Source: Verrucomicrobiales bacterium
GTDB taxonomy: Bacteria > Verrucomicrobiota > Verrucomicrobiia > Verrucomicrobiales > DEV007
DNA: 64,000 nucleotides
Direction of reading: 5' to 3'
Assembly: GCA_029212615.1 (NCBI GenBank)
Contig: JARGPJ010000001.1
Location: 124,001 to 188,000, forward strand
Every line of letters begins with the position of its first letter. Position 1 is the first letter of the stretch. Shown piece after piece: positions 1-19,820 of the stretch. Both the position numbers and the translations under genes were made by a program. The notes under the pieces were generated by a model that did not search any database, had not been told where the DNA came from, and saw only the letters and a program-made list of their open reading frames with translations.

Positions 1-275
1 GAGTGAGAGCACTCATGGATGAAGTCATCACAGCCGCCGCAGCCTTCGGCCATGAGATTGCCCCCTCCTTCGCCGAAGGGAACATCAAGAACACCGCAGA
101 GATGGGAGCCTATAAACCATCGAGCCTGATTGATTTTGAAGCAGGTCAATCAGTTGAAATTGAACCGATCTGGGGAGAACCCCTGCGCCGCGCGGAGAAG
201 CAGGGAATCGCCATGCCGGAACTGAAGCGTCTTTATCAGCAAATTTGCACAGCCGTGAAAACACGTTCATCTTAA
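1..275 (+). CDS. panE: 2-dehydropantoate 2-reductase, C-terminal part (cut by window edge)
   Basis: Only the last ~91 codons are present; the reading frame is open to the left edge, so the GTG at position 3 is probably internal. The visible segment matches the C-terminal helical domain of ketopantoate reductases (ApbA/PanE family): YKPSSLIDFEAG followed by VEIEPIWGEPLRRA and a GIAMPELKRLY end, the part that closes over ketopantoate. The full enzyme reduces 2-dehydropantoate to pantoate with NADPH in pantothenate/CoA synthesis, in the cytoplasm. The stop lies 3 bases before the next gene, suggesting cotranscription. Family assignment is good. Some paralogues of this fold have other substrates, and the N-terminal NADPH-binding half is not visible to test. 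Confidence 0.72.
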   Translation, partial: VRALMDEVITAAAAFGHEIAPSFAEGNIKNTAEMGAYKPSSLIDFEAGQSVEIEPIWGEPLRRAEKQGIAMPELKRLYQQICTAVKTRSS

Positions 276-278
276 GCC

Positions 279-1076
279 ATGGGCGACCAGGAATTTCATT
301 TACCCAAAAGCCTCGGAAACCACACCCCGAAGATCGGCCTGGTCCTCGGTTCCGGCCTCGGGAGTTTCGTGGATACCCTGGACGACAACGAACAGGTGGC
401 ATATTCCGACATTAAAGGCCTCCCGCAAAGCGGCGTCGAAGGGCACGCAGGAAAGCTTCACCTTGGAAAACTCGGCGGCATCGAGATCGCGATCGCTCAG
501 GGCCGTGTCCATCTTTACGAAGGGTGGTCCGCCAAAGAAACGGCCTCGATGATTCGCCTCTTTCATCAAATCGGTATCACCACCGTCGTCCTGACCAATG
601 CCGCCGGAATCGTGAATGCCAACTTCAAACCGGGCCGCTGGATGCTGATTTCAGACCACCTCAATTTGACCCGTCAATCGCCTCTTACCGGCGAAGCAAC
701 GTTCATCGACCAAACCGAAGTCTATTCACGTGCTCTGCGCGAAATGCTCAAATCAGAGGCTGCTGAAATCGCCTCCGCCTACCTCTTTGAAGGGGTTTAC
801 GCCTGGGTCAACGGTCCTGAATACGAAACCCCTGCCGAAGTGCGAATGCTTCGAGGGTACGGGGCTGATGCGGTCGGCATGTCAACCGTACCCGAAGCCA
901 TTCAAGCGAGAGCACTTGGAATGCGTGTCGTCGGACTCTCCTGCCTCACCAACTACGGCGCGGGCCTCACGGGACAAGCGCTCAGTCATGATGAAGTCAT
1001 TGAAGTCGGCAGGCAGGCCGCAGGGGAACTCTTCACCCTTCTCGAAAACGCGGTGCCGGCGATGGTGGAGATTTGA
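279..1076 (+). CDS. punA: purine nucleoside phosphorylase (PNP/MTAP family)
   Basis: This 265-residue enzyme should cleave purine (deoxy)nucleosides with phosphate to free base and (deoxy)ribose-1-phosphate in cytoplasmic purine salvage. Landmarks of the trimeric PNP/MTAP family are in order: phosphate loop GSGLG at 24-28, GHAG at 55-58, RVHLYEG at 76-82, NAAG at 107-110, GPEYETPAE at 179-187 and VGMSTVPE at 199-206. Asn225 (LTNYGAG) corresponds to the residue that selects 6-oxopurines in PNP, where methylthioadenosine phosphorylases carry Asp, so PNP is favoured. The ATG is 3 bases past the preceding stop. The GPEYET variant of the usual GPSFET/GPNFET segment is a small oddity. Confidence 0.9.
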   Translation: MGDQEFHLPKSLGNHTPKIGLVLGSGLGSFVDTLDDNEQVAYSDIKGLPQSGVEGHAGKLHLGKLGGIEIAIAQGRVHLYEGWSAKETASMIRLFHQIGITTVVLTNAAGIVNANFKPGRWMLISDHLNLTRQSPLTGEATFIDQTEVYSRALREMLKSEAAEIASAYLFEGVYAWVNGPEYETPAEVRMLRGYGADAVGMSTVPEAIQARALGMRVVGLSCLTNYGAGLTGQALSHDEVIEVGRQAAGELFTLLENAVPAMVEI

Positions 1077-1120
1077 GTATCGCAAGACCCATCGCCTCGA
1101 TTCCCAAAACGCTCGATCCG

Positions 1121-1921
1121 TCACGGACGCATCCTGGCTTCAAGGGTCTTCATATTCTTCTGAATCCAGTACCCGAAATAATTCAACCAGGGCCCCGCTC
1201 TTTCTCCGGCGTCCACCTGTGCACGCGTTTCCGCCGCCCGAACGGCAAAGCTTGACCTCCTCTCACCGATATTGAACAAGGTCACGAGAAGAGGTGCATC
1301 GTCGCGGATCTGGAACCCCTCACTCTCGTAGCGGTTCGCCGCGTAATTCATGTAGGCACAAATAATGTTGATGGAACCTTTCCAACAATATTTGTCCATC
1401 TCATCTTCGGTAGCGTCGGGCCGGATTCGCTTGATCTCAGACTGCATCGCCGTGGCAATAAAAGGCTGGACCTGACCGGGACCGAAAGACGCGTCGCCAC
1501 TTGCACCCCGGAACTTTACGTTCAAATTATTAACAAGGCTTTCCCCCGACTTTCCGAATTTTTTTCCGATTAAGTTGATTCCTGATTCGCCGACCTGCTT
1601 CAGGGTGCTGCGCTGATTCATGGAGTGTTCGCCCATGATCGCGCCGAACACCGCCAACGGAGACACTTCATAAACCTCAGCCATCTCAATGAGGTAGGTA
1701 AGGAGATCCGACTCTCCCTCCCCCACTACAAAATGCTTCTTGTAGAAAACTGTATTGAAGTGCTTGTCCGTCCGCGGATAAAATTGATCGCGCTGAATCT
1801 CCCGCATGTTCTCCCGCGAAATCTCCCGTCCCTCAATCGTAACAGCATGCACCGACCCAAACCCTAACACCGCTATAATAGAAATCAGGACGGCTTTCAT
1901 TGCGGTGGAATTTTTCTTCAT
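1121..1921 (-). CDS. secreted lysozyme-like (DUF1402-like) protein
   Basis: Exported protein of about 266 residues. The start is placed at the ATG giving MKKNSTAMKAVLISII, a lysine-rich n-region and hydrophobic core ending near SVHA; a second ATG at 1897 would also give a signal peptide, while the longer frame to 2005 overlaps the upstream gene and adds an implausible leader. The mature part holds GAIMGEHSMN and, about 50 residues later, SFGPGQVQP. This Glu-then-S-x-G-x-x-Q arrangement is seen in lysozyme/lytic-transglycosylase folds, and the whole resembles DUF1402 proteins. A role in peptidoglycan turnover is inference; no substrate can be read from the sequence. Confidence 0.6.
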   Translation of the reverse strand: MKKNSTAMKAVLISIIAVLGFGSVHAVTIEGREISRENMREIQRDQFYPRTDKHFNTVFYKKHFVVGEGESDLLTYLIEMAEVYEVSPLAVFGAIMGEHSMNQRSTLKQVGESGINLIGKKFGKSGESLVNNLNVKFRGASGDASFGPGQVQPFIATAMQSEIKRIRPDATEDEMDKYCWKGSINIICAYMNYAANRYESEGFQIRDDAPLLVTLFNIGERRSSFAVRAAETRAQVDAGERAGPWLNYFGYWIQKNMKTLEARMRP

Positions 1922-1961
1922 CAAAACAGACTCAGCTACATGACACCTTGCACTATCGCTG

Positions 1962-2849
1962 TCAATTCTGAGTGAGGAACCAGTTGATTGTCTTTCGCCA
2001 GTCAATCATGCGGATAGGCGTTCCATGAGTACCACTCTCAAACCGTTCGAATCGAATCGGATAGCCGGGACTTTTCTCCCGAATATGCAGGTAAAGCGAG
2101 TCCATCTTCTGAAGGTAGGAAACCCAGTCACGACTGCCGTGACCAATGTAGACCGGGACCCTCGATTCGAAAGCATCCGACCCGATGAATTGATTATTCG
2201 GAAACGAACCCAAAAGAATGAGACCACCCAATCGTTCCGCAAGATCACTCTGCCGACACAACTGATAGGAGACGACGCCTCCTGCGGAACCGCATGAAAT
2301 AACTATCTTCGCCCGGGGCGAAAGCGCTGCATAATGCATCAGCATCCCATAAATCTGCTTCGCCCCGCGCCCGCTAAAACTGGCAATGTCAGGCGAGAGA
2401 TAGAGTCCCCCGCTCTGCGCGACAAGATTTTTAAGACGGTTAAAATTGCCTCCGAAAGTCTTATCATCGACCCCCTGATCCCGACTTCCCCCTTTTCCAT
2501 GCAGGTAGACCACAATGATGGACGCATTTGTCGTCGTCCCGACCGTGAAATGTCGGATCCACCCATGCCTGGTCTTCAGGCGTGTATCTGACTGCATCGA
2601 ATTCACTTCGAGAGAAACCCGCTCAGGCTTGGCCTGCTTTTCCGGGATGGCATCCCGACCGTTGATGTCCCGGGAAGAGACATAGTCGAGGATGAGATAA
2701 TCCCCGTCATGTCTCGACTCAAGGACCTTCGGAACCTTGAACATCTCGTCTTTCCACGGCACCAACTGAAGCGGCGCGGAAGCCTGGCCAAAAACGAGAC
2801 TTTGAGAAACGGCGAACATCGCCAAAAAGACTAACTGCCGGATTTTCAT
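1962..2849 (-). CDS. secreted alpha/beta hydrolase
   Basis: A 295-residue alpha/beta-hydrolase with an N-terminal signal peptide (MKIRQLVFLAMFAVSQSLVFGQA). I chose the ATG at 2849 because it overlaps the stop of the upstream phosphatase gene in an ATGA arrangement and puts the signal sequence first. The oxyanion region is YLHGKGGS, the nucleophile elbow CGSAGG, the acidic residue lies in GHGSRDW and the catalytic His in GTHGTP, so the triad is complete. Expected location is the periplasm or outside. Substrate unknown: esterase, peptidase-like or lipase-like activity are all possible. It is the third gene of a leuA-gph-hydrolase run with 4-base overlaps. Confidence 0.72.
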   Translation of the reverse strand: MKIRQLVFLAMFAVSQSLVFGQASAPLQLVPWKDEMFKVPKVLESRHDGDYLILDYVSSRDINGRDAIPEKQAKPERVSLEVNSMQSDTRLKTRHGWIRHFTVGTTTNASIIVVYLHGKGGSRDQGVDDKTFGGNFNRLKNLVAQSGGLYLSPDIASFSGRGAKQIYGMLMHYAALSPRAKIVISCGSAGGVVSYQLCRQSDLAERLGGLILLGSFPNNQFIGSDAFESRVPVYIGHGSRDWVSYLQKMDSLYLHIREKSPGYPIRFERFESGTHGTPIRMIDWRKTINWFLTQN

Positions 2850-3520
2850 TTTATCTCCATTCCAATCAGTGAACACAAATCGCGGGGTTCTTCCAGAATA
2901 TATTCAGCTCCGGCATCACGGAGTTCCTCAACCGATCGAAAACCCCATGCCACTCCGATCGCATGCATTCCCGCGTTCACCGCTGTCATCATGTCGACGT
3001 CTGAATCTCCGATGAAGTAGCAGTCTGCGGGACGCAGACCGAGAATACCCGCCGCCTCAATCGCCCCCGCCGGATCCGGTTTCACGGGAACTCCTTCCCG
3101 GGCACCCAGAACGACATCCCATTTCCAGTCACTGAGGAAAGCCTCCACGCACTTCCCGGTAAAGTCGTGCGCTTTGTTGGAGAGCACCCCGATGGGCACC
3201 TCCGCTTTCGTCAGTTCATCCAGCAGCGCAGGGATCCCGGAAAACGTGACCGTGGTATTCTGCCACCTTTCTCCATAGTTCTCGCGATACTCAGCAAGGA
3301 TCGTTTCAGCCTCCTCCCCCATCGCCGGGCGATGCTCTTCGGGAAAAATATCCCGCACCAGATTCATCATTCCGTTCCCGACAAAAGTACGGTAGGCATC
3401 AACCGGATGCGTCGGAAATCCGCGCGCTTCGAGAACCGCATTCCCTGAGTCAGCCAGATCCTGCAAAGTATCCAGAAGCGTTCCGTCGAGATCAAAGAGA
3501 ATGCCACGACCGGAAGTCAT
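2846..3520 (-). CDS. gph: HAD phosphatase, phosphoglycolate phosphatase type
   Basis: Cytoplasmic HAD-superfamily hydrolase of 224 residues with cap subdomain. Motif I is FDLDGTLLDT (nucleophile Asp10, Asp12), motif II LSNK, motif III KPDP and motif IV GDSDVDM, giving a complete catalytic set. Closest named function is Gph, which removes phosphate from 2-phosphoglycolate formed during DNA-damage repair, but related enzymes act on other small phosphate esters, so specificity is inferred. It is translationally coupled on both sides: its ATG overlaps the leuA stop (TCA/CAT in + sense at 3517-3520) and its stop overlaps the hydrolase start. Confidence 0.78.
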   Translation of the reverse strand: MTSGRGILFDLDGTLLDTLQDLADSGNAVLEARGFPTHPVDAYRTFVGNGMMNLVRDIFPEEHRPAMGEEAETILAEYRENYGERWQNTTVTFSGIPALLDELTKAEVPIGVLSNKAHDFTGKCVEAFLSDWKWDVVLGAREGVPVKPDPAGAIEAAGILGLRPADCYFIGDSDVDMMTAVNAGMHAIGVAWGFRSVEELRDAGAEYILEEPRDLCSLIGMEIK

Positions 3521-5217
3521 CCCTCCTCCTTTCGAAGTAAATTCCAGGCACAGATAAGCGCCTTCAATCCCGCCATCTCGATGGAAGGATCAATCCCGCA
3601 ACCCCAGAGGAGCTTTCCGGATTCGCCATGCTGAATCTGGACGTAGGCCGCTGAATCCGCATCAGATCCACCGCGAAGCGCCTGACTGCGATAATCAGTC
3701 ACCTTGAAATCCTTATGGCCTGATTCCTCCAGGAAATGCACGAAAGAGTTGATCGGCCCATTGCCCTTCCCGGACCCTGAGACAACTTCACCGTCGATCT
3801 TCACCGTGGCCTGACAAACCACTTCGCCACGTGACATCGCGGTGTGATCGAGTTCGAAATTCTGGAGTTCGAGCGGCGCATCCTGATTCACAAAGTGCTC
3901 CAGAAAGATATCGCCAATCTCATCATTACTCAGCTCACGACCTTCCTCGTCGGCCCTGTCATAAACAAATTTCCCGACCTGAGGATGCATTGATTTCGGC
4001 AAATCAAATCCGTGCTCACGGTCAAGGATGTAGGCAACGCCACCCTTACCGCTCTGACTGTTAATGCGGATGATCGCCTCATAACTTCGCCCGATGTCCT
4101 GAGGGTCAATCGTGAGATAAGGCACGCCCCACGGGAAATCGGTTCCGGATTCGTCGACATCACGGCTGCGACGATCGAAGCCTTTCTTAATCGCATCCTG
4201 ATGACTCCCTGAGAAAGCGGTAAACACCAACTCACCCGCGTAAGGCTGACGCTCGGGAACCGTGAGACGGGTCACCTCTTCGTATATCTGCCGCGTCGAA
4301 GACAGGTCTGAAAAATCGAGACCCGTCTCGATGCCGTGGCTGTTCATGTTCAACGCAACAATGACGATATCGAGATTTCCGGTCCGCTCTCCGTTTCCGA
4401 AAAGCGTTCCTTCGACCCGGTCGGCACCGGCGAGCAATCCAAGTTCGGTCGCGGCAACGCCGGTCCCGCGGTCGTTGTGCGTATGCAGGCTGATGATCGA
4501 ATGCTCGCGGTTATCGACGTGCCGACAAAACCACTCGATCTGATCAGCATGTACATTCGGCGTCGACCACTCCACCGTTGCCGGGAGATTTAAAATAATT
4601 TTTCGATCTTTGTTAGGCTCCCAGATCGCGGAAACAGCATTACAGACCTCAAGCGCATAATCGAGTTCCGTATCTGAAAAGCTTTCCGGGGAATACTGCA
4701 AAGTGATTTCGGTATCCTGAAGCGTCGGAACCAGTTCCCTGATCAACTTTGCGCCTTCAATAGCAATGTCCCGGATCTTCTCTTTCGACGCATCCCCGAA
4801 AGTGACACGGCGCTGCAAGGGGGACGTCGAATTGTATAAATGCACAATTGCCTTTTTCACTCCTTCGAGACTTTCGAAGGTGCGTCGAATCAATGGCTCA
4901 CGAGCCTGGACCAGCACCTGGATCGTGACGTCGTCGGGGATGCGATCCTGCTCAACGAGCGCGCGGAGAAAATTAAACTCCGTATCTGCCGCTGACGGAA
5001 ACCCGACTTCGATCTGCTTGAACCCGATCCGGACCAACTCATCGAAAAGACGAAGCTTTTCGTCTACGCTCATAGGAACCGGTAGCGCCTGATTTCCGTC
5101 ACGGAGATCGACACTTGCCCAGACGGGCGCTTGTGTGATGGTCCGGTCCGGCCAGGTACGGTCGGGTAATTCGACCGCCGGAAACGGTCGATATTTTTGG
5201 ATGGATTCAGGTTTCAT
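3517..5217 (-). CDS. leuA: 2-isopropylmalate synthase (long LeuA form)
   Basis: First committed enzyme of leucine synthesis: condenses acetyl-CoA and 2-oxoisovalerate to 2-isopropylmalate in the cytoplasm. The 566-residue product (start at the ATG 5217, giving MKPESIQKYRPF) has the DRE-TIM barrel with DLRDGNQ at 37-43, metal-binding HTHND at 245-249 and GNGERTGN at 274-281, then a C-terminal LeuA dimer/regulatory domain with a glycine-rich SGSGKGNGP segment where leucine feedback usually acts. This is the fungal/actinobacterial-like length class. Upstream lies a leucine-rich leader peptide and two hairpins, so control by leucyl-tRNA supply is likely. Downstream gph and a hydrolase overlap it by 4 bases each. 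Confidence 0.93.
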   Translation of the reverse strand: MKPESIQKYRPFPAVELPDRTWPDRTITQAPVWASVDLRDGNQALPVPMSVDEKLRLFDELVRIGFKQIEVGFPSAADTEFNFLRALVEQDRIPDDVTIQVLVQAREPLIRRTFESLEGVKKAIVHLYNSTSPLQRRVTFGDASKEKIRDIAIEGAKLIRELVPTLQDTEITLQYSPESFSDTELDYALEVCNAVSAIWEPNKDRKIILNLPATVEWSTPNVHADQIEWFCRHVDNREHSIISLHTHNDRGTGVAATELGLLAGADRVEGTLFGNGERTGNLDIVIVALNMNSHGIETGLDFSDLSSTRQIYEEVTRLTVPERQPYAGELVFTAFSGSHQDAIKKGFDRRSRDVDESGTDFPWGVPYLTIDPQDIGRSYEAIIRINSQSGKGGVAYILDREHGFDLPKSMHPQVGKFVYDRADEEGRELSNDEIGDIFLEHFVNQDAPLELQNFELDHTAMSRGEVVCQATVKIDGEVVSGSGKGNGPINSFVHFLEESGHKDFKVTDYRSQALRGGSDADSAAYVQIQHGESGKLLWGCGIDPSIEMAGLKALICAWNLLRKEEG

Positions 5218-5240
5218 GGGGTTAATTAAAAGGGAAAGGC

Positions 5241-5324
5241 AAAAAAGGCGGAACGCAATACCCCCCCAAATGAACAATTCGGGGAGTTAGGAAAAGGGAC
5301 AAATACTGAGCAGACTAGCCCAGT
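5241..5324 (-). promoter_or_regulatory. leuA leader RNA with two hairpins (putative attenuator)
   Basis: In the minus-strand transcript, ACTGGGC (5324-5318) pairs with GCTCAGT (5311-5305) around a TAGTCT loop that contains the leader stop codon. Downstream, CCCCGAAT pairs with ATTTGGGG (5284-5264) around a 5-base loop. A run of six T follows at 5246-5241, about 20 bases after the second stem, so it is not a textbook intrinsic terminator. Alternative pairings that would complete an antiterminator switch could not be enumerated by eye. Control may be by termination or by sequestering the leuA start region. Confidence 0.55.
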
Positions 5325-5386
5325 AGCACCAGCTCGAGAGCGAGCGGGAGAGAAAGAAAGGCGGTGCGATGTGTCGTGATTTTCAT
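5315..5386 (-). CDS. leuL: leucine-rich leader peptide of leuA (attenuation leader)
   Basis: A short open frame, too small for routine gene calling, encodes 23 residues: MKITTHRTAFLSLPLALELV then LLG and a TAG stop. Seven of 23 codons are leucine and all seven fall in the last 13 residues. An AAGG lies seven bases before the ATG. The stop codon sits in the loop of a 7-bp hairpin, and a second hairpin plus a T-run lie between it and leuA, 97 bases downstream. This is the layout of amino-acid leader peptides whose ribosome stalls when charged leucyl-tRNA is scarce. The reading frame is seen; the attenuation role is inferred from the layout. Confidence 0.72.
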   Translation of the reverse strand: MKITTHRTAFLSLPLALELVLLG

Positions 5387-5429
5387 CCTTTGGCCTTAAA
5401 CCTAGGGTCAAAGGCGGGCCTGTCCAGTC

Positions 5430-6458
5430 TCAATCTCTACGTTGGTGCAGGACACGGAAAGCTTCACCCACCCCGGAAGAGGCCATTTCATCGGCCCCTT
5501 CCCCGAAACGATGCAAAAATTCCGCCTGCGACTCTTCCCTGACCGACTCAAGATCAAAGTCTTCCCCCCACGAAATGAGATCGCCAAAATTCACATCGAC
5601 AGTGAGATCCTGTTTTCCGAATCGCTGATAGACACCTCCCCCCTCGATTCTTTGCTGACGGTGATATGCCCGGAGGGTTCCGCCCGGGCGTCGATCGTAG
5701 AGTTCCGCGGCTCGACCTCCGTAATCGATCGTGAGAATTGATCCCTTCTCCAGATGCTCAGAAAGATTGGCAAGCCACCGCTGAAACAAGGGCTGAATCT
5801 CCACCCGCTGCCCACAGTCCGGTTCCTTCAGTGCAAGAGCTGAATAATCGTAATCGGGGAACCCTTTCGGCATCGGTTTAAATATTTCAGCAAGACCACT
5901 GTCGCGATTAAAGGTCACAAAAATTTCCAGCCAACATTTTTCGATCCCACTCCAGCGAAGCCATTTCGCCGGAAAGGCATCGACGAGCTCATTCGAAATG
6001 ATAAGGGCTTCTCCACCCGTCGCCTCCAGGGCGGACGACACGCTCGCATGCCACTCCACGGAGTAGGATTTCAGCGCCGCCTCCTGCTTTTTTCGAAGCG
6101 GTGCTGAGACATCGACGATGTGATATTGAATCTGGCGGCGCTTCCACCACCCGAAAGACTTTAATATTTCGAGAGCCAGCTCCCCGTTACCGGCCCCGAC
6201 CTCAATCACGGGAACGGAATGCTCCCATCCGTGATGTTCCCTCTCATCATGAATCCACCCTGCGATCGCCTTCGCGAGCCCGCTTGAAAGCGTCGCCGAT
6301 GTCGCGAAGTCGCCCCGTGCGCCGCCCACATCCTCAATTCCGCTGGTGTAATACCCGAAAACAGGGTCATACAGTGCCATCGCCATGAATTGATCAAAAG
6401 GCATGGCTCCCCCTGCTTTTTGAAAAGTCTCGTGGAGAAAATCGCGTAAATCAGGCAT
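5430..6458 (-). CDS. MidA-family class I SAM-dependent methyltransferase
   Basis: A 342-residue methyltransferase of the MidA/NDUFAF7 (former DUF185) family. Diagnostic segments are GDFATS at 49-54, the SAM-binding EVGAGNGEL at 86-94, SNELVDAFP at 155-163, then TIDYGG, GTLRAY and DLTVDVNF in the C-terminal half. The mitochondrial member methylates an arginine of complex I subunit NDUFS2. Bacterial members are widespread, and their target is usually not established, so arginine methylation here is inference. The gene stands alone on the minus strand, upstream of the leuA leader region, and diverges from the octaheme cytochrome gene. Confidence 0.8.
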   Translation of the reverse strand: MPDLRDFLHETFQKAGGAMPFDQFMAMALYDPVFGYYTSGIEDVGGARGDFATSATLSSGLAKAIAGWIHDEREHHGWEHSVPVIEVGAGNGELALEILKSFGWWKRRQIQYHIVDVSAPLRKKQEAALKSYSVEWHASVSSALEATGGEALIISNELVDAFPAKWLRWSGIEKCWLEIFVTFNRDSGLAEIFKPMPKGFPDYDYSALALKEPDCGQRVEIQPLFQRWLANLSEHLEKGSILTIDYGGRAAELYDRRPGGTLRAYHRQQRIEGGGVYQRFGKQDLTVDVNFGDLISWGEDFDLESVREESQAEFLHRFGEGADEMASSGVGEAFRVLHQRRD

Positions 6459-6558
6459 AGTCGCGAGCGATTAAACAGGGTTTAGTCCCTCATTCAAGAG
6501 GGTTTGATCGCAAGCCTGACGTGTTTCTACCGTATTTTCACCTCCCCCTGACAGTCGC

Positions 6559-8925
6559 ATGCTCCGCTTTTTCGCCGTCTTTTCCGTTCTCATTGGCACC
6601 CTCCTATCCTCTTGCGGACCGGACGGGGAAACAGAGAACGTCGAAACGGCGGTCGATTACTCCCCCTATCATGACGTCCCGGAGGCATCCTATGTCGGGC
6701 TGAAAAATTGCACTGCCTGCCATGAACAGGAATACGACGACTGGCTCCTCAGTGATCACCACCTCGCGATGAACCCGGCGACTGAAGAGTTTGTCCTGGG
6801 AGATTTCGACAATGCGGAGTTCGATCACTTCGGACAGAAGTTCCGCTTTTTCCGGAAGGGCGCTGAATACTGGGTCAACGCTCAGGACGAGAACGGCGAA
6901 TACAAAGACATGAAGATCGAATACACCTTCGGTCACGAGCCATTGCAGCAGTATCTCATCCCCTTCGAGGGCGGCAAGTATCAGGCGCTTCAGGTTTGCT
7001 GGGACAGCCGCCCGGCGGAAGAAGGCGGTCAACGCTGGTACCATCTCTACCCTGATGAACCTGTCCCCGCCGACGACCTCCTTCACTGGACACGTCGTCA
7101 CTTCAACTGGAACTACATGTGCGCAGACTGTCACTCCACCGATCTGAAAAAGAATTTTGATCCTGACACGCTCACCTACAACACGACCTGGTCAGACATG
7201 AACGTGACCTGCGAAGCCTGCCACGGCCCCGGTTCCGAACATGTAAAATGGGCCGAAGCCCATGGGAAAATCGAATCCGGCGAGGCCAGCGAAGCTGATT
7301 TTTCCGAGCTCAAGGACTACATCTCAGGCAAGGGGCTCGTCGTCACCCTCAAGGAGCCGGAGGAAGGAGCCTGGACAATCAACCCGGAGACAAACCTCCC
7401 TGTCCGGACACAGCCGATTGCCTCGGATGTGCAGATTGAAACCTGCGCCCGCTGTCACTCGCACCGCCAACTGCTCGAACCTCATCACACCGCCGGAGAG
7501 CCCTTCCACGACGGCTACCAGCCATCCGTTATCTCTGATCAACTTTATCATCACGACGGGCAGGTCGACGAAGAGGTCTACGTCTACGGTTCCTATGTTC
7601 AGAGTAAAATGTTCCACGCGGATGTTCGCTGTACGGATTGCCACAATCCGCACTCGATGAAACCGAAGCTACCCGGAAATTCACTCTGCCTGCAGTGTCA
7701 TCAGGCCGACTACAACACACCGGCCCACCATTTCCACCCCATTGGAAGTACCGGCGCGAGCTGCGTCGATTGCCACATGCCTCACACCACTTACATGGGT
7801 GTCGATGACCGCCGCGACCACAGCATTCGTATTCCACGCCCTGATCTTGCCAAACAGCTCGGCACCCCCGATGCCTGCACCCAATGCCACGAAGACGAGG
7901 ATCAGGACTGGGCCACGGAGCATTTCAAAAACTGGTGGGGCTCCGGCCCGAGGAACGCTCACTACGGTGAAATCCTCGCCTCGGCACGCCGCGGGCAACC
8001 CGGGTCAATGGATCGACTTCTCGCTCTCGCAAATGACGACGACCGTCCTGCCATCGTTCGCGCCGCGGCCGTCGAAACCATCGGCCAGCAAACCCCCGAC
8101 CGCGAAACCATCCAGGCCATTATCGGAAGTCTCGACGACGAAAAACCGGAAGTTCGCATTCAGGGATTGAGCGCCCTGATCAATTACCCGGCAGAACAAC
8201 GAACCCCCGCGATCGCCCTTCTCGATGATCCTTCCCGCGCAGTGCGGGCGCAGGCAGCGAGAACCGTGGCGCCCTTGAGCGCCCGGTTCGATGAAGCACA
8301 GCAAGCTTCGTTTAAACGGTCCGCTCAGGAATTTACGAAAAAGCAGGAAGCCATTTTCGACCGAGCCGCCGGACACCTCAACATGGCACTCTTCTACACA
8401 GATCTCGGCCAGCTCGACAAAGCGGAGGCCGCCTACCGCAACGCGACCCGGGTCGAGCCTGAATTTGTTCCCGCACGAGTGAATCTCGCCGAGCTGCTCT
8501 ACCGTCAAAACCGCCCGCAGGAAGCCGAGGAGGAATTTCGAAAAGCCATCGACGAAGCGCTTCTTCCCGAAAACAAAGGCGTCGCTCGTGATGCCCTCGC
8601 CCGGTTTTTAATCCGCCTGAAGCGCTACGATGAAGGAATCGAAGAACTGCGACTGGCGACTGAGCTGATTCCGAATCACGCGCAGACACACTACTTTTAC
8701 GGCGTCGCCCTGAATTCTCTCGGAAGAGTTGATGAGGCACTCCCCTACCTGCAACACGCGCAGCAACTCGACCCCTACAACGTCGAGTATCTCGTCGGCC
8801 TCGCCACGATCTGCCGCGACGCAGGGAAGGTCGACCTCGCGCGGAAATATGCACAGGAGGCACTTACCGCGCAGCCCGAAAATCAGCAACTGCAACAGTT
8901 GGTGCAGAGTTTGGGGGGAGGGTGA
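6559..8925 (+). CDS. octaheme c-type cytochrome lipoprotein with HEAT and TPR repeats
   Basis: Secreted electron-transfer or redox protein of 788 residues. The signal sequence ends in a lipobox (LLSSC, Cys19), predicting a lipid-anchored protein on the periplasmic face. Eight CxxCH heme-attachment motifs begin near residues 51, 188, 218, 296, 358, 377, 402 and 440; the segment between hemes 5 and 7 looks like a doubled-CXXCH/cytochrome c554-type unit. Residues about 470-590 form HEAT-like helical repeats (LDDEKPEVRIQGLSALINY) and about 600-780 at least four TPR units (DLGQLDKAEAAYRNAT). Multiheme-TPR fusions of this type occur in Verrucomicrobiota and Planctomycetota. Substrate is unknown; nitrite/hydroxylamine chemistry or electron relay are options. 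It is isolated, convergent with folA. Confidence 0.85.
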   Translation: MLRFFAVFSVLIGTLLSSCGPDGETENVETAVDYSPYHDVPEASYVGLKNCTACHEQEYDDWLLSDHHLAMNPATEEFVLGDFDNAEFDHFGQKFRFFRKGAEYWVNAQDENGEYKDMKIEYTFGHEPLQQYLIPFEGGKYQALQVCWDSRPAEEGGQRWYHLYPDEPVPADDLLHWTRRHFNWNYMCADCHSTDLKKNFDPDTLTYNTTWSDMNVTCEACHGPGSEHVKWAEAHGKIESGEASEADFSELKDYISGKGLVVTLKEPEEGAWTINPETNLPVRTQPIASDVQIETCARCHSHRQLLEPHHTAGEPFHDGYQPSVISDQLYHHDGQVDEEVYVYGSYVQSKMFHADVRCTDCHNPHSMKPKLPGNSLCLQCHQADYNTPAHHFHPIGSTGASCVDCHMPHTTYMGVDDRRDHSIRIPRPDLAKQLGTPDACTQCHEDEDQDWATEHFKNWWGSGPRNAHYGEILASARRGQPGSMDRLLALANDDDRPAIVRAAAVETIGQQTPDRETIQAIIGSLDDEKPEVRIQGLSALINYPAEQRTPAIALLDDPSRAVRAQAARTVAPLSARFDEAQQASFKRSAQEFTKKQEAIFDRAAGHLNMALFYTDLGQLDKAEAAYRNATRVEPEFVPARVNLAELLYRQNRPQEAEEEFRKAIDEALLPENKGVARDALARFLIRLKRYDEGIEELRLATELIPNHAQTHYFYGVALNSLGRVDEALPYLQHAQQLDPYNVEYLVGLATICRDAGKVDLARKYAQEALTAQPENQQLQQLVQSLGGG

Positions 8926-8931
8926 AGGAAC

Positions 8932-9405
8932 TTACTTCCTCACATACCGGCGCAGTTCGAAGTCATCATCCTGATAGACAACTTCCTGCATCGTGAATTC
9001 GTCCTCGAACGCCGGCAGCGCCGTATCCCCTTCGTAGGGATGAAAGACATAGCTCAGCAACACTTCGTCGCAGAGCGGAAGCATTTCGGCGTAAATTTGC
9101 GCGCCACCGATGATACTGACTTTTTCTTCGCCTTCGAGCCCCTGAAGCGCTTCCTCGCAACTGCGAACGAGTTCGAATCCCTCAGGCAACTCCGTGGCAC
9201 CTCTTGAAATCACGATATTCCGCCGCTTCGGAAGCGGGCCGCGAAGAGACTCCATCGTCTTGCGCCCCATCACGACGGGATGCCCCACGGTCATCTTTCT
9301 GAACCACTTCAGATCCTCCGACAATCGCCAGGGAAGATCACCGTCTTTCCCGATGATCCGGTTCGAGGCCATCGCGACCACGGCTTGAATGCGGGGACGA
9401 CTCAT
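8932..9405 (-). CDS. folA: dihydrofolate reductase
   Basis: Reduces dihydrofolate to tetrahydrofolate with NADPH, regenerating the cofactor oxidised by thymidylate synthase. The 157-residue protein carries the family N-terminus [19 protein letters not shown] (Met20-loop and substrate-binding region), then [20 protein letters not shown] with the NADPH-binding segment, and IIGGAQIY near the C-terminal half. Its ATG overlaps the thyA stop by four bases, the usual thyA-folA coupling. It is the last gene of the LOG-thyA-folA run and ends 6 bases from the convergent cytochrome gene. Confidence 0.95.
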
Positions 9406-10205
9406 ACCGCGATAGGAGCTTTGATACCGGGATACGGATCGTAATCGACCAGCTCGAAATCGTCATAGGAGAACCCGTCAATCTCCTTGATCTCCGGATT
9501 GAGTTTCATGACCGGCAAAGGGCGTGGTTCACGGGTGAGTTGGAGTTTTGTTTGCTCCAGGTGATTCTGATAGAGATGCAGATCACCAAAGGTGTGAACA
9601 AAATCCCCCGGCTTCAACCCGCAAACCTGAGCCATCATCATGGTGAGCAGCGCGTAGGAGGCGATATTGAACGGCACACCGAGAAAAAGATCGGCACTCC
9701 GCTGATAGAGCTGACAGCTCAGTTCACCGCGTGTTGTGTCGACGTAAAACTGAAACATGGTATGGCAGGGCGGAAGCGCCATCTCATCGACATCGGCGGG
9801 ATTCCAGGCACTCACGATATGGCGACGACTCGTCGGATTGGTCTTGATCGCCTCAACGACCCTGGCGAGCTGGTCGATGGACTCCCCTTCGTCACCGACA
9901 GCCCAGGAGCGCCACTGTTTCCCGTAAACGGGACCGAGATCCCCATTCTCATCCGCCCATTCATCCCAGATCGAAACTCCGTTTTCCTTGAGATAATTGA
10001 TGTTTGTATCGCCGTTCAAAAACCAGAGAAGCTCATGTATAATCGAGCGCAGGTGCAGTTTCTTCGTCGTGAGACAGGGAAAGGATTCGCGCAGGTCGAA
10101 ACGGGCCTGAGCACCGAAAACACCGATCGTGCCAACACCGGTGCGGTCGTCGCGTGCCGCGCCGTGATCAAGAACATGCTGGAGGAGGTCGTGGTAGGCC
10201 TTCAT
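9402..10205 (-). CDS. thyA: thymidylate synthase (ThyA type)
   Basis: Makes dTMP from dUMP using methylenetetrahydrofolate as carbon donor and reductant. The 267-residue product has normal ThyA length and signatures: the catalytic cysteine in [11 protein letters not shown], the dUMP-binding arginine/serine segment [24 protein letters not shown], and the C-terminal HLYQNHLEQ segment. The start [16 protein letters not shown] is typical. It begins two bases after the LOG gene stop and overlaps folA, so the three are surely one transcript. The presence of a classical ThyA/FolA pair argues against dependence on flavin-type ThyX. Confidence 0.96.
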
Positions 10206-10207
10206 TT

Positions 10208-10789
10208 TCAGTAAAGAGAGGTTGAACCCGTCGCCGCCGCATCAGCGAGCGTTTCAACGAGATCGGCGATGTCATCAGAGACAATCAAATTTGCGGCATC
10301 TTCGGCCGTGATAAACCCGGCCTCGACCTGAGTCTTACCGCAGAATGAAATCAGTTCGTCGTAAAATCCATCGACATTAAGGATGCCGCTCGGCTTGTCG
10401 TGCTCCTGCAATCTGGACCAGGTCAGCATTTCAAACATTTCATCCAGCGTGCCAATGCCGCCCGGGAGGGAAATAAATCCATCGGAAAGGTCTGCCATGA
10501 GCTTTTTACGGGCCAGCATCGTGTCGACGACTTCCATGCGATGCGCGAGCGGATGAGCCAGCTCCCGCTCTTCTAAATAATGGGTGATCACGCCCACCAT
10601 TTCGCCCCCGGCTTCAATACACCCATCCGCGACCGCCCCCATGAGTCCGAGGCTGCCCCCGCCGGTGACAAGACGGATCCCGTTCTCCGCGAAGTAGTGC
10701 CCGACGGCCCGCGCCGAGGCTTCAAAGGCCGGGTTCGTGCCTGAGTTCGCGCCGCAAAAAACGCAGAGTGACTGAAAAGAAGCCGACAT
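10208..10789 (-). CDS. LOG family nucleotide-5'-monophosphate phosphoribohydrolase
   Basis: Lysine-decarboxylase-like (LOG) protein of about 193 residues. The nucleotide-binding [14 protein letters not shown] and the catalytic [14 protein letters not shown] motif, with the family arginine just before it in [14 protein letters not shown], identify it. Characterised members hydrolyse N6-modified AMP (cytokinin precursors) or other nucleoside monophosphates to base plus ribose-5-phosphate. I placed the start at the ATG 10789 so that the protein begins near [11 protein letters not shown], as family members do; an in-frame ATG at 10822 would add 11 residues. It heads the thyA-folA transcript, consistent with nucleotide housekeeping, but the exact substrate is not known. 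Confidence 0.82.
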
Positions 10790-11045
10790 CGGAAGCAGAA
10801 AGGAAAGTCTATCCTCATTCAAGCGGCCCTGTCTGCAACCAAATCCTCAACCAAAGGCCATTTTTCGAGCACGAATGCGCAGCGCACCCTCGAATGAAAA
10901 AGAAACAGCGCGAACTTCCAGAGACCGCACGCGTTTCCTTCTCCAAAATCTTCTCTTCATTCAGGCCGAAACCGGACCCGTAAAATTCGACCATACTTTT
11001 CTGAAAAATTATCGCTGCGAGGCCTCCTCTTTGCTAGGGTGCGCC

Positions 11046-11318
11046 ATGACAGCGCGGCAATACATCTTCGCAGGTCGAGTGCAGGGCGTAGGCTTTCGTT
11101 ACTCGACGAAGCGACTCGCCAAAGGGTTCGACGTTCTCGGCTGGGTGAAAAACCTTCCCGATGGCCGCGTCGAGCTTCAGATCATGGGCGAAGAGGAGGA
11201 ATTAGATGAATTTCTCGAAGAACTGCACGACAGCCCCCTCGGGCACCACATTCAGGAACAGGAAGAAAGGACGGTGCCGCTTCTGGAGGACGTGAAAGGA
11301 TTTTCGATTCAGGAATAG
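11046..11318 (+). CDS. acyP: acylphosphatase
   Basis: Small cytoplasmic enzyme hydrolysing acyl phosphates. The 90-residue product starting at the ATG 11046 (MTARQYIFAGR) carries both family signatures: GRVQGVGFRYST with the phosphate-binding loop and catalytic arginine, and GWVKNLPDGRVELQ with the catalytic asparagine. The open frame continues upstream to 10875, but those residues are not acylphosphatase-like and the conserved domain begins exactly at this ATG. Two bases separate its stop from the next ATG, so it probably leads the ABC transporter transcript, though with no obvious functional link. Confidence 0.92.
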   Translation: MTARQYIFAGRVQGVGFRYSTKRLAKGFDVLGWVKNLPDGRVELQIMGEEEELDEFLEELHDSPLGHHIQEQEERTVPLLEDVKGFSIQE

Positions 11319-11320
11319 GA

Positions 11321-12187
11321 ATGAGCGAACCAGCGGTAGAGGTAAAGAATCTGACCAAGGTCTTCAGCACCGGTCTCTCAAAAAACTACGTCGTCGCGGT
11401 CGACAACCTCTCCTTTGAGGTCGCCGCGGGTGAAGTCTACGGATTGATTGGTCCAAACGGCTCCGGCAAGTCCACCACGATGAAGGTGGTCCTCGGCCTC
11501 ATGGCCGCCAGCAGCGGCTCGGCAAAAGTGTTCGGGCTCGACAGCGGTGATATCCGGGCACGGAATGAAATCGGATTTCTCCCTGAAAACCCGTATTTCT
11601 ACAAGCATCTCTCCGGTGAAGAAACGCTGAAATTTTATGGCAAACTCTGCGGCATCAAAGGAAGCGAGTTAAAAGACCGCATCGCCGACCTCCTCAAACT
11701 GGTCGATCTCGAAAACGCCGCCAATCGACGACTCGGGGGTTACTCGAAAGGCATGCTGCAACGCATCGGCCTCGCCCAGACACTGATCCAGAATCCGCGC
11801 CTCGTCATCCTCGACGAACCCACCGCCGGGGTTGATCCGGTCGGCTCGCGACAAATCCGTGACCTCATTCTCAAGCTGAAAGAGGATGGCTACACCGTCT
11901 TTCTCTGTTCCCACCTCCTTGAGCAGGTTCAGGAAGTTTGCGACCGTGTCGGCATTATCTTCAAAGGTCGCATGCGCCGAGAAGGGACGCTCGATGAATT
12001 AATCCAGATTGATTCGCAAACGGCGATGACCCTGGAAAATGCCTCCCCCGAGCTAATGAGTAAAATCCATGACCTGATCGCTTCCGACGAAGCCGCCGGC
12101 ATTATTGAAGAAGGCCATCCCCGCACCACTCTGGAGCGCCTCTTCATTCAAATCGCCGATCAGAACAAAAAGGAGGAATCCGCATGA
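11321..12187 (+). CDS. ABC transporter ATP-binding protein (ABC-2 type)
   Basis: ATPase subunit of 288 residues energising the adjacent membrane protein. Walker A is GPNGSGKST, Walker B LVILDEPTAGVDP and the H-loop lies in FLCSHLL. The signature is the variant GGYSKGMLQRIGLAQ common in ABC-2 exporters of the CcmA/NosF group rather than LSGGQ. A ~70-residue C-terminal extension follows the core. The stop overlaps the permease start by four bases. Substrate is not predictable; gliding/secretion, antibiotic-export or copper-assembly exporters share this architecture. Confidence 0.88.
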   Translation: MSEPAVEVKNLTKVFSTGLSKNYVVAVDNLSFEVAAGEVYGLIGPNGSGKSTTMKVVLGLMAASSGSAKVFGLDSGDIRARNEIGFLPENPYFYKHLSGEETLKFYGKLCGIKGSELKDRIADLLKLVDLENAANRRLGGYSKGMLQRIGLAQTLIQNPRLVILDEPTAGVDPVGSRQIRDLILKLKEDGYTVFLCSHLLEQVQEVCDRVGIIFKGRMRREGTLDELIQIDSQTAMTLENASPELMSKIHDLIASDEAAGIIEEGHPRTTLERLFIQIADQNKKEESA

Positions 12188-13098
12188 GTGATTCGAAAAC
12201 GACCCTTCAATCCCCCGCCCGCTCCGTCCCGCTGTTTTCCATCAGCCGCGTCTGGACCCTCGCGATCAGCACGCTCACTCAGCTGATCCGGATGAAGACC
12301 TTCTACTTCCTCTTCGCCTTTGCCGTGCTCCTCCTCGTCATCGGCAACTTTAACTTTGCCTCATCACCGGCCCAGGCTCTCTCGACCATTAAAAAAGTCT
12401 CCTTCGGTGCGATGGACCTTTTCGCCTGGCTCTTTGCGATCGTAGCGACCGCTCTACTGATCCCCCGCGATATCGAGGACCGCACCCTCTACACGATCCT
12501 CTCGAAACCGGTTCGCCGGATCGAGTACCTCCTCGGGAAACTCGGCGGCGTCCTCATCGTTATCGGCATCTCGCTCTCGGTGATGTTTCTCGTCTGCGCC
12601 GGCATGATTCAGTGGCAGGAAATGGGCTACATTGCTGATGAAGTCAGCGCTTCCCCAAACGGCATCAGCGATGAGACACGGCAGGCCATTCTCCTGATCG
12701 AAAAAAACGGCTTTCACTCCGACCTCGCAGTGGCAGCTCTCGCCTCGTTCATGAAAGCTGCGGTTGTCGCTTCGGTGACAATTCTGCTATCCACTTTCGC
12801 CTCCAGCTCGCTCTTCACGATCATCGTCAGCGTTCTCGTCTTCCTCGTCGGTCACGCCCACACCATGGCCACCAATTTCTGGCTCGCGGAAACCGATAAT
12901 AACATGGTCGTGCAAATGCTTTTGAAGCTCTTCAAAATCATCATTCCAAACTTTCAAATTTTCTCTTTCAGCGAAGGCATCGTCCAGGGCGCTGCCCTTG
13001 TACCGGCGCTCATCTGGCAAATGACAGGACTAACCGGTGCCTACCTCGTCGTTTTCCTCCTCCTTTCTCTTCTCACCTTTGTCGATAAAGAATTTTAA
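12184..13098 (+). CDS. ABC-2 type transporter permease
   Basis: Integral membrane partner of the preceding ATPase, 304 residues with about six hydrophobic segments: near residues 35-60 (TFYFLFAFAVLLLVIGNF), 80-100, 115-140, 185-205, 210-230 and the C-terminal ALIWQMTGLTGAYLVVFLL. A conserved cytoplasmic stretch PRDIEDRTLYTILSKPVRR after the second segment is typical of ABC-2 membrane proteins of this subgroup. It overlaps the ATPase gene by four bases and is followed four bases later by a membrane-anchored TPR-like protein, so a three-component complex is plausible. Confidence 0.83.
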   Translation: MSDSKTTLQSPARSVPLFSISRVWTLAISTLTQLIRMKTFYFLFAFAVLLLVIGNFNFASSPAQALSTIKKVSFGAMDLFAWLFAIVATALLIPRDIEDRTLYTILSKPVRRIEYLLGKLGGVLIVIGISLSVMFLVCAGMIQWQEMGYIADEVSASPNGISDETRQAILLIEKNGFHSDLAVAALASFMKAAVVASVTILLSTFASSSLFTIIVSVLVFLVGHAHTMATNFWLAETDNNMVVQMLLKLFKIIIPNFQIFSFSEGIVQGAALVPALIWQMTGLTGAYLVVFLLLSLLTFVDKEF

Positions 13099-13102
13099 TC
13101 CG

Positions 13103-13903
13103 GTGAAGGCATTGTTTCAGAAATCCCCCAGATGGCTTCTCGTCCTCGTCGGCCTCGCCATTTTCGGAATCGTCCGGGCCCCCTTCGAGGAGCACACGCG
13201 TAAAAAACTGGTCGACTCACATCTTCTACTACCGCCACCGGCACAGGACGCCATTCAACAAATGAGCCAGTCAGCGCTCATGGGAACGCTGGGGGGGCTT
13301 CGAACACTCGTGAGTTCCTACCTCGTTCTCGAGGCGTTTGAACATTTTTCGAATAAAGAATGGGAGGAATTGCGAAGCGCCTACGCCATCGTAACCAGCC
13401 TCGAGCCGCGCGATGAAAATCACTGGCGTGACGTCGTCTGGCATCTCGGCATCAATGCGACTGCCAACATGCAGCTTGATGAGACAATCCCTGAGTTTGA
13501 ACGGAAGCGCCGCTTCAATGAATACGCCCTCCTCGCTGTCGAGCTTGCAGAGCAGGGCATCGCTCAGAATCCTGATTCTGCAGTGATTCGCCAGCAGCTC
13601 GCCGAAGTATATAGAGAGAAACTGAAGGACGACTGCGCCACGGCCCGGGTTTATCAGGATCTCGTGGGACTTCCTGAAGCGCCGCAATATGCGGAGCGAT
13701 TTGCCGGGTATTTTCTCGCCAAATGCCCCGGGCATGAGCAGGAAGCCTACGATCACCTTCTACGCCTCTACTACGAAGGAGAACATAACCACGTCGCCTC
13801 ACTCATCATCACGATCAAAGACCTCGAAAAGCAGCTCGAAATCCCACGGAGCCTCCGCATTACCGAGCCTTATCCCGACCTGCCGGGACTCACGCAACCG
13901 TGA
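13103..13903 (+). CDS. membrane-anchored TPR-like protein of the ABC operon
   Basis: I do not recognise a named family. Starting at the GTG 13103, four bases after the permease stop, the 266-residue product has one N-terminal transmembrane segment (WLLVLVGLAIFGIVRAPF) and a soluble helical part with TPR-like periodicity (LAEQGIAQNPDSAVIRQQL, LAEVYREKLKDDCATARVY). An in-frame ATG at 13037 would overlap the permease and add an unlikely serine/phenylalanine-rich leader. Position and spacing suggest an accessory or scaffold subunit of the exporter, anchored in the inner membrane with its repeats outside; this is inference. The C-terminus ends in a proline-rich tail. Confidence 0.66.
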   Translation: MKALFQKSPRWLLVLVGLAIFGIVRAPFEEHTRKKLVDSHLLLPPPAQDAIQQMSQSALMGTLGGLRTLVSSYLVLEAFEHFSNKEWEELRSAYAIVTSLEPRDENHWRDVVWHLGINATANMQLDETIPEFERKRRFNEYALLAVELAEQGIAQNPDSAVIRQQLAEVYREKLKDDCATARVYQDLVGLPEAPQYAERFAGYFLAKCPGHEQEAYDHLLRLYYEGEHNHVASLIITIKDLEKQLEIPRSLRITEPYPDLPGLTQP

Positions 13904-14031
13904 TTGACACGGCCTTCTGTCGCCGCTGCCCCGTCAGGGTTTTGTCCCTCCGATGCGTTGCGAAAACCTTTTTCTATGTTTAGTTCATAGGCTTCCCGCT
14001 TTTCGAAAGCGCCCGCTGCTCAACCCCTGTA

Positions 14032-14754
14032 ATGAAATACGCCATTTTCGGAGACATCCACGCTAATCTAGAGGCTTTCGAGACAGTCTTAGCAGATGCT
14101 CAGGAAATGGGATGCACCGACCACGTTTGTGTAGGTGATATCGTCGGCTACGCCGCCAATCCGAGGGAGTGCCTTCAGATTGTCCAGGAAATGGGATGCC
14201 CTGTCGTAAAAGGGAACCACGATGAGGAAGCAATTCTCGATACCTCGCTCGAAGGACTCAACCCCCTCGCCAAACAGGCGATGGAATGGACCCGGGCCCA
14301 GCTCAACCCGGAGGAACGCGAATTTCTCGGGAATCTCAAACTCGTCCGGCAGGTTCGCGATTTCACGATCGTACACGCCACCCTCGACACGCCCGGCGGC
14401 TGGACCTATGTGACGAATAAATTCGATGCGATGGCGAGCTTCAGCTATCAATTCACCCAGCTTTGCTTCTACGGCCACACGCACACCCCGCGAATCTACA
14501 CCAAAGGCGACAGCGTCGAGCCTTCTGAAGAGCTCAGCGTAAAGCTTGAGATGGGACGAAAATATTTCATCAACGTGGGCAGCACAGGTCAGCCTCGCGA
14601 CGGTGACTGGCGCGCCTCGTATGCCATCTACGACGTCGAGAATCAGGAAGTGAGTATCCGCCGCCTTGAGTACGACGTTCAAAAGGCTCAGGACAAGATC
14701 ATCGAAGCCGGCCTCCCTGAGATGTTGGCCCATCGCCTTTCACTGGGAAAATAA
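14032..14754 (+). CDS. metallophosphoesterase (YfcE/MJ0936-like)
   Basis: Calcineurin-like phosphoesterase of 240 residues with all dinuclear-metal motifs: GDIHANLEAF near the N-terminus, VCVGDIVGYAANP, KGNHDE, and GHTHTPRIY, plus the NVGSTGQPRD motif typical of the compact YfcE/MJ0936-like bacterial phosphodiesterases. It should hydrolyse phosphodiesters or phosphomonoesters in the cytoplasm; the natural substrate is unknown for most members. The stop is followed after one base by the GTG of a glycosyltransferase, so the two are coupled. Confidence 0.82.
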   Translation: MKYAIFGDIHANLEAFETVLADAQEMGCTDHVCVGDIVGYAANPRECLQIVQEMGCPVVKGNHDEEAILDTSLEGLNPLAKQAMEWTRAQLNPEEREFLGNLKLVRQVRDFTIVHATLDTPGGWTYVTNKFDAMASFSYQFTQLCFYGHTHTPRIYTKGDSVEPSEELSVKLEMGRKYFINVGSTGQPRDGDWRASYAIYDVENQEVSIRRLEYDVQKAQDKIIEAGLPEMLAHRLSLGK

Positions 14755-14755
14755 A

Positions 14756-17921: not shown

Positions 17922-17968
17922 ACCCTGTTTGATCCTACCGGGGAACCACAGGCCCGTCTCCAGCCTTT

Positions 17969-18679: not shown

Positions 18680-18740
18680 GCCGAAACATGGCCCCTGATT
18701 GCATGAAGGACGAATGAATTTTCAGCCGAAAACCGGTTTC

Positions 18741-19178: not shown

Positions 19179-19328
19179 AGGGAAACAAGGGTTACAAGTT
19201 AGTCACAGGGAAACTGCATAACGTTTTTTTAAAAACGCCACAAGCCAAAATGCGCTACTTCCGGTCTAATGAGTCGGATTTGTTGTATTTAGTCGTAATT
19301 TCACCCGCATTACCCTGAAGTTTTTCTT

Positions 19329-19781: not shown

Positions 19782-19820
19782 CGAACGCCCTTCTGCTTAA
19801 TCCCTGTGAGCCGCCAAAGC

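Follow-up and report, generated by a model that had tools for sequence, protein, structure and literature searches.

A Conserved Leucine-Rich Leader Frame and a Covarying Leader RNA Upstream of leuA in Verrucomicrobiales

A Leucine-Rich Reading Frame Upstream of leuA

A short reading frame upstream of leuA in a Verrucomicrobiales bacterium is well supported, by comparison of related sequences, as the gene of a leucine-sensing leader peptide, and such a gene, controlling leuA in cis, is probably what explains the locus as a whole. The window, by which we mean the whole stretch of 64,000 nucleotides that was analyzed (assembly GCA_029212615.1, contig JARGPJ010000001.1, positions 124,001–188,000), carries on its minus strand leuA for 2-isopropylmalate synthase (3517–5217; TIGR00970 at 732.9 bits against a cut-off of 697.4, together with PF00682, PF22615, and PF08502). 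Between leuA and a methyltransferase gene of the same strand (PF02636) that ends at 5430 lies a frame of 23 codons reading MKITTHRTAFLSLPLALELVLLG (5386–5315, minus strand; ATG at 5386, stop codon TAG at 5317–5315). The original prediction had given this frame 7 leucine codons among its last 13 and a distance of 97 nt from its stop codon to the ATG of leuA (5217), and both are borne out.

When every start codon is counted, only 1 of the 1795 start-to-stop stretches of 13–40 codons on the two strands of the window reaches this leucine count (at least 7 Leu in the last 13 codons), and the binomial chance of it is 1.2e-4 at the leucine share of 10.3% found in 45 long window ORFs. The 213-nt leader region in the window sequence folds with z = −2.4. 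Conservation in relatives is stronger evidence for a leader than such chance counts within the window.

Conservation within the Genus

We searched 33 genomes of the genus and found a LeuA orthologue with readable upstream DNA in 28 of them (L001–L026, L028, and L031). As judged by eye, a leucine-rich leader precedes leuA in 26 of these 28 genus members, with its stop codon 73–108 nt upstream of leuA. A fixed rule, formulated after the sequences had been seen (at least 6 Leu in the last 16 codons and a stop codon 45–260 nt upstream of leuA), is passed by 20 of the 28 genus loci, as against 0.35 expected from shuffles and 0/28 on the reverse strand. It misses L011, L012, L019, L021, L023, and L026, which have at most 5 Leu in their last 16 codons, and also L024 and L025. 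The last two are sister branches on the LeuA tree; inspection by eye of the DNA upstream of leuA shows L025 to be without a leader and L024 to have only a weak TTG frame. In both, again by eye, the upstream methyltransferase gene seems to stop near leuA, with a common GC-rich stretch in between.

The leader is exactly 23 codons long in 22 of the 26 genus leaders, 27 codons in L023 and L026, and 19 in L028, and a 3-nt insertion in L015 preserves the frame and gives one extra leucine codon. Among 22 genus leaders, leucine accounts for 30.0% of codons in frame versus 7.7% and 6.7% in the other two frames, and CTA, which makes up 2.5% of leucine codons in the genes of the window, accounts for 18 of the 152 leader leucine codons. 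Rarity may not be the sole reading of the CTA at codon 21, where the A is possibly also constrained by the stem H2 described below. Codons 9–18 of 22 genus leaders show no third-position excess of change. Because this codon-position pattern is missing there, the case for coding comes from the frame and the leucine content, and what is retained is the leucine content, not the peptide sequence.

Promoter-Like Boxes and Translation Starts

A −35-like box TGGACA (5426–5421, minus strand), in a conserved block of alignment A1, is followed by a −10-like box TAGGTT (5404–5399), with 12 nt from the box to the leader ATG. Transcription is predicted from the −10-like box to start at about 5392, ~6 nt before the leader ATG, which is not downstream of 5384, as the original prediction needs. 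A TNGACA-like box lies 16 bp before TANNNT in 39 of 41 leaders, including the variants TTGCCA in three leaders and TTGACT in three; in L021 the spacing is 17 bp, and L060 has no such pair. Any such box pair is found in 1–15% of shuffles. The search pattern was set with the alignment already in view, and the 15 non-genus rows among the 41 were hand-picked. A generic sigma-70 scan does not report the −35/−10-like boxes of the leader.

The −10-like box ends 9–16 nt before the ATG in 24 of 26 genus members (28 nt in L018 and 22 nt in L026), so that the message would begin ~1–10 nt before the ATG and may be nearly leaderless. A Shine–Dalgarno-like 4-mer within 20 nt before the leader ATG is present in only 5 of 22 leaders, in line with a near-leaderless start. 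Immediately upstream of leuA, over the same span of 20 nt, such a 4-mer is present in 0/28 genus members, and leuA itself may also start without a Shine–Dalgarno sequence. In loci L038, L086, L087, and L089 of family f4, the 16-bp spacer is very constant and 8–10 nt separate the −10 box from the leader start. TNGACA-16 bp-TANNNT may be a main promoter type of the order, pointing to leaderless messages.

A Branched RNA Fold with Covarying Stems

Folds of single leaders share a branched form composed of P0, H1 (GCACC/GGTGC, over the leucine codons), H1b, and H2. On the minus strand of the window, P0 pairs GACA in codons 4–5 (5375–5372) with TGTC (5301–5298), and is seen both in individual folds and in a structure test on alignment A3. 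H1 pairs GCACCG in codons 7–9 (5367–5362) with TGGTGC in codons 19–21 (5331–5326), and the hairpin H1b, nested in H1, pairs GCTCG (5345–5341) with CGAGC (5336–5332). H2 pairs TACTGGGC, which comprises the last leucine codons and a glycine codon (5325–5318), with GCTCAGTA (5311–5304). A 7-bp hairpin with the leader stop codon in its loop had been predicted here; TAG does lie inside the 6-nt loop of H2, but the stem has 8 pairs, one of them G-T.

The alignment A3 has no gaps and comprises 21 of the 26 genus leaders, with L012, L015, L023, L026, and L028 excluded for indels or a diverged H2. It was used instead of the sequence-only alignment A1 because MAFFT, as judged by eye, misplaces the H2 3′ arm in A1, on which RNAalifold finds only H1 and a 3-bp helix. 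In A3, 84.1% of cells are paired versus 33.9–43.8% with partners slid by 1–3 columns, although the tested structure had been read from the sequences of A3 itself and so has an advantage over the slid controls. Changes on both sides occur in 10 of 24 pairs versus 5.0 (sd 1.1) in shuffles, and the covariation of 0.201 versus 0.126 (sd 0.011) is reached by 0/500 shuffles; further pair types, one of five covariation measures, stay within shuffles (56 of 500). The proportion of paired cells is 73% in P0, with double changes in 4 of 5 pairs, 96% in H1 (1 of 7 pairs), 89.5% in H1b (3 of 5 pairs), and 76% in H2.

Partners were also swapped among 24 genus members, L023 and L026 being excluded (2000 swaps, 17 segment pairs, uncorrected). 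In this partner-swap test, own partners beat all 2000 swaps for both H1 and H2 (P < 0.0005 each), whereas P0 gives P = 0.03 or 0.08, depending on which partner stretch is chosen; an unplanned pair, a:d, reaches P = 0.038, which we take as chance. On the LeuA tree, the fourth pair of H2 has undergone at least 4 changes (states hand-coded, 25 rows), and H1 shows double changes in two other genera of the family, GTGCC:GGCAC in L050 and GCGCC:GGCGC in L051. The comparison supports stems H1, H1b, H2, and the downstream stem H3, and P0 less firmly. Both the leucine run and the stems, on whose conservation in relatives the original prediction depended, are conserved.

The letters of H2 are retained between genera, and the position of the stop codon relative to the hairpin differs. 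Together with a fold that covaries and a peptide sequence that drifts, this would fit control at the level of translation or an RNA bound by a protein, as proposed for the actinobacterial LEU element, with a conserved junction that is bound by protein or blocks leuA initiation and with leucine codons that matter little. Mutants of the Streptomyces coelicolor leuA leader are likewise reported, in the excerpted account of PMC1262725, not to act as classical attenuation. Such an explanation nevertheless gives no reason for the strong leucine enrichment in one frame, there is in none of the 28 genus members a Shine–Dalgarno-like 4-mer before leuA to mask, and the junction strands vary while few of the unpaired positions are constant (the initial ATGAA and T..TC in the H2 loop); we regard it as rather improbable beside a leucine-sensing leader peptide. 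A riboswitch was also considered, and was set aside on account of the variable junction strands and the few unpaired invariant letters. No Rfam family reaches its gathering score in the 64-kb window, and the only match in 5150–5480 is to a snoRNA, with E 3.1, far below the cut-off.

Downstream Hairpins, Candidate Terminator, and Pause Site

The stem H3 (5284–5264, minus strand), with 8 pairs including one G-T, is formed downstream by CCCCGAAT (5284–5277) and ATTTGGGG (5271–5264); it is seen in folds and in the partner-swap test (P = 0.0015). An 8-bp hairpin followed by a T-run had been predicted, and both are present (5284–5264 and 5246–5241), but they lie 17 nt apart and therefore do not together make a standard terminator. 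A second hairpin, H4 (5267–5246), a competitor of H3 for the G run that reaches the T-run, fits a terminator better, yet it is only a weak candidate, with −7.4 kcal/mol in the window (10% of shuffles equally low) and a partner-swap P of 0.067 in 24 genus members. Of the same 24 genus members, 18 carry a hairpin with a T-rich tail; by eye it is H4 in 13 of these 18, H3 in L009, and another pairing in L006, L010, L014, and L018. None with a T-tail was found in the other 6 of the 24. The mean energy of the tailed hairpin over all 24 is −5.25 kcal/mol versus −1.41 kcal/mol in shuffles, and in 11 of the 24 it falls at or below 5% of their own shuffles. A generic terminator scan of window positions 1–20000 reports neither leader hairpin, and in the same scan neither terminator-like sites (26 vs. 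22.7, sd 4.8) nor promoter-like sites (8 vs. 8.7, sd 3.1) are enriched. On the plus strand, a terminator-like hairpin inside leuA (5171–5191; 7 pairs, tail TATTTTTGGA) is probably due to chance.

Two candidate antiterminators were rejected: d:f, the H2 3′ arm with the G-run, and b:g, the H1 3′ arm with TTGYGYCC. Both exceed letter shuffles in complementarity, but neither is partner-specific (P = 0.64 and 0.22, respectively), and no partner-specific pairing thus links the strands that a ribosome would cover to H3/H4. The b:g pairing turns up in stalled-ribosome folds and by eye is apparently broken in L050 and L051. Of the leader-peptide attenuation originally proposed, the leucine-sensing leader peptide is well supported because the conservation and start-site checks, as far as run here, are both favorable, but attenuation in the strict sense is not well supported, because the terminator-like hairpin is weak, 6 of the 24 genus members gave no T-tailed hairpin, and neither candidate antiterminator is partner-specific.

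H3 and H4 share one G-rich strand, and the same G-run also begins GGG-N5-TGYG, which is 57–62 nt from the leader stop in 24 genus members, although the anchor pattern itself demands most of these letters. In 22 of 24 genus members, as against 1.9% of letter shuffles, GG-N6-TGYG is found 35–75 nt downstream of the leader stop, and the copy in the window, GG-N6-TGCG (5265–5254, minus strand), agrees with the consensus for RNA polymerase pausing, G-10 Y-1 G+1. According to the excerpt of PMC9291695, this consensus is reported also for the pause in Escherichia coli leuL, which follows a predicted protector hairpin. Pausing and H3/H4 pairing would explain the same letters of GGG-N5-TGYG and appear indistinguishable with these data.

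The output of the leader could also depend on Rho, which would load on the G-poor, pyrimidine-rich linker behind H2 once the ribosome leaves at the stop codon and would catch RNA polymerase at the H3/GGG-N5-TGYG pause, with no need of an intrinsic terminator. The genus linker is indeed 38% C and 40% T (78% C + T) with 11% G, the GG-N6-TGYG motif matches the leuL-type pause consensus as excerpted from PMC9291695, and part of the genus has a weak intrinsic terminator or none that was found. Against this, a ribosome stalled at the leucine codons would expose the linker, which is the wrong sign unless other structure masks it. Moreover, a pyrimidine-rich linker does not by itself prove that Rho loads, the linker of other families has a larger share of G (0.18–0.25), the pause is predicted from sequence, and pairing in H3/H4 accounts for its letters equally well; Rho-dependent output is on balance unlikely.

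Proposed Mechanism and Comparison with Known Leaders

Comparison shows the frame, its leucine bias, the promoter-like boxes, and the single copy at leuA. From these we infer translation, stalling, a near-leaderless start, H4 as a terminator, and a coupling of ribosome position to H3/H4. Under the leader-peptide model, transcription would begin a few bases upstream of the leader ATG, and a ribosome would translate the run of leucine codons, including the rare CTA, inside and just before two RNA stems. If Leu-tRNA is short, the ribosome would stall at the leucine codons, opening P0, H1, and H1b and leaving H2; if Leu-tRNA is plentiful, it would reach the stop codon in the H2 loop and open H2 as well. 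The position of the ribosome would thus determine which stems form, and H3/H4, through their common G-rich strand, would convert this position to read-through or a stop before leuA. A bolder version, that the near-leaderless ORF is itself the covarying branched RNA of an order-wide class of leucine-responsive leaders, in which the ribosome acts via an RNA polymerase pause backed by a hairpin (GGG-N5-TGYG, with Rho perhaps involved) and not via a classical terminator/antiterminator, strikes us as doubtful.

The leader would work like the enterobacterial leuL and the actinobacterial leuA leaders, its nearest relatives in kind. It resembles a leader-peptide attenuator in having a short upstream ORF rich in codons of the product amino acid and, in the genus, a stem (H2) that starts in the control codons and whose loop contains or adjoins the stop codon, whereas the candidate terminator and antiterminator limit its strict membership. 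Enterobacterial leuL is likewise a leucine-rich leader peptide before leuA, and it too contains rare CTA codons, although its leucine codons form one block and those of the present leader are scattered. Unlike leuL, the present leader has no strong terminator with a U-tract and no Rfam match, its whole frame lies inside a branched RNA, and it probably has almost no 5′ UTR. Toward the end of its leader, leuL likewise has a hairpin and the complete pause consensus, as described in the excerpt of PMC9291695.

Actinobacterial leuA leaders are also leucine-rich and precede leuA. For Streptomyces lividans LeuL1, the excerpted text of PMC8079986 describes a leaderless transcript and no typical terminator. 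The LEU element (Seliverstov 2005), as excerpted from PMC1262725, is a pseudoknot with a stem between the leucine codons and the leuA Shine–Dalgarno box; here this base stem has no counterpart, with no Shine–Dalgarno-like 4-mer before leuA in 28/28 genus members and with strands around the leucine codons that pair elsewhere. In Bacilli, the histidine leader peptides that precede hisS paralogs are likewise a case of leader-peptide control outside Proteobacteria and Actinobacteria, but they concern another amino acid and another gene and were found via premature terminators, which are weak in the present leader (excerpt of PMC2965389). In 2010, the same excerpt states, leader-peptide systems were known only from Proteobacteria and Actinobacteria, to which Bacilli were then added. 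The original prediction knew of no description in Verrucomicrobiota, and none was met among the matches listed in the full-text literature, a search whose scope is mostly papers without subscription; PMC11683593 and PMC11611912 contain the words but, in the matching excerpts, treat other things.

A conserved leucine leader in Verrucomicrobiales would add one more phylum to those in which amino-acid genes are under translation-sensed control, and, if its output is transcriptional, would imply transcription–translation coupling there. Actinobacteria would also no longer be the only lineage whose leuA leader is seemingly read from a near-leaderless message without a strong terminator, and the leader would offer a natural leucine sensor.

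Distribution beyond the Genus and Specificity for leuA

Outside the genus, 54 order loci were sampled from 127 order genomes with a LeuA match, and 31 of them pass the fixed rule, as against ~0.5 expected in shuffles and 0/54 on the reverse strand. By family, the rule is passed by 14 of 22 other loci in f1, 10 of 11 in f4, 7 of 15 in f2, 0/3 in f3, and 0/3 in f6. Outside the order, 2 of 20 loci sampled from 49 with a match pass (class 1/16, phylum 1/4), and because the reverse strand passes equally (2/20), there is no leader signal in this sample. A scan of named isolates found the leader in Luteolibacter marinus NBU1238 (L116) and did not find it in Persicirhabdus sediminis (L112); the 55 of 80 named loci that pass a looser rule include some chance frames and overlap other sampled genomes, and are not used as a count.

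Upstream regions of ilvB (0/27, of which 3 had <300 nt upstream) and of hisG (0/26) never pass the leucine rule, and a separate isoleucine rule before ilvB and hisG gives one match (L201). A covariance model, R1, built from A3, finds one copy in its own genome, at leuA, and over 189 order genomes it matches 25 with one match each, all directly before leuA. Among these are four genomes absent from its training (G018, G058, G073, and G166), of which the last three are outside the genus. In the 189-genome scan R1 has no match in the genus members G002, G019, G023, G027, and G029; the locus of G023 (L023) gives a weak match when scanned separately, and L026 and L028 give none to the RNA model.

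These counts bear on whether the leader is merely a short frame in a conserved promoter region, with leucine codons that simply follow from a CT-rich composition. Pyrimidines do abound in the region, and close relatives have common ancestry, as this explanation would have it, but the pass rates in the genus and the order far exceed the shuffles and have no equal on the reverse strand, the stems covary across several changes on the tree, and no ilvB or hisG upstream region passes. Chance is therefore extremely unlikely, and the leucine-sensing leader peptide remains our preferred reading.

Families f1, f2, and f4 share a recurrent ending, LG-[LV]-[AS]-[AST]-[RH], together with a GGG...CCC stretch; the frame stops four codons earlier, inside the GGG...CCC stretch, in the genus of the window and in the f4 genera g9 and g36. 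The region of the stop codon folds better than shuffles in the genus (mean z −1.35, 26 loci), in f1 (−1.37, 16 loci), and, to a smaller degree, in f2 (−0.84, 7 loci), and no better than shuffles in f4 (0.09, 10 loci). LRL/CTTCGACT repeats are present in other families. Small genomes of the f2 genus g4 (G035, G042, G046, and others) have no close homologue of this LeuA type, with distant matches of 28–33% identity, and this leader, in this setting, is thus impossible there. Upstream of leuA in the f3 loci L034–L036, CTTCGACTTA or CTGCGACTTA precedes, by eye, a strong GC hairpin, whose T-rich tail is present in L034 and weaker in L035, and short frames such as MICFVLRLSPLRHAVAELRFVF, up to its stop codon, span that stretch in L034. 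The three f3 loci possibly carry a different leucine leader with a real terminator.
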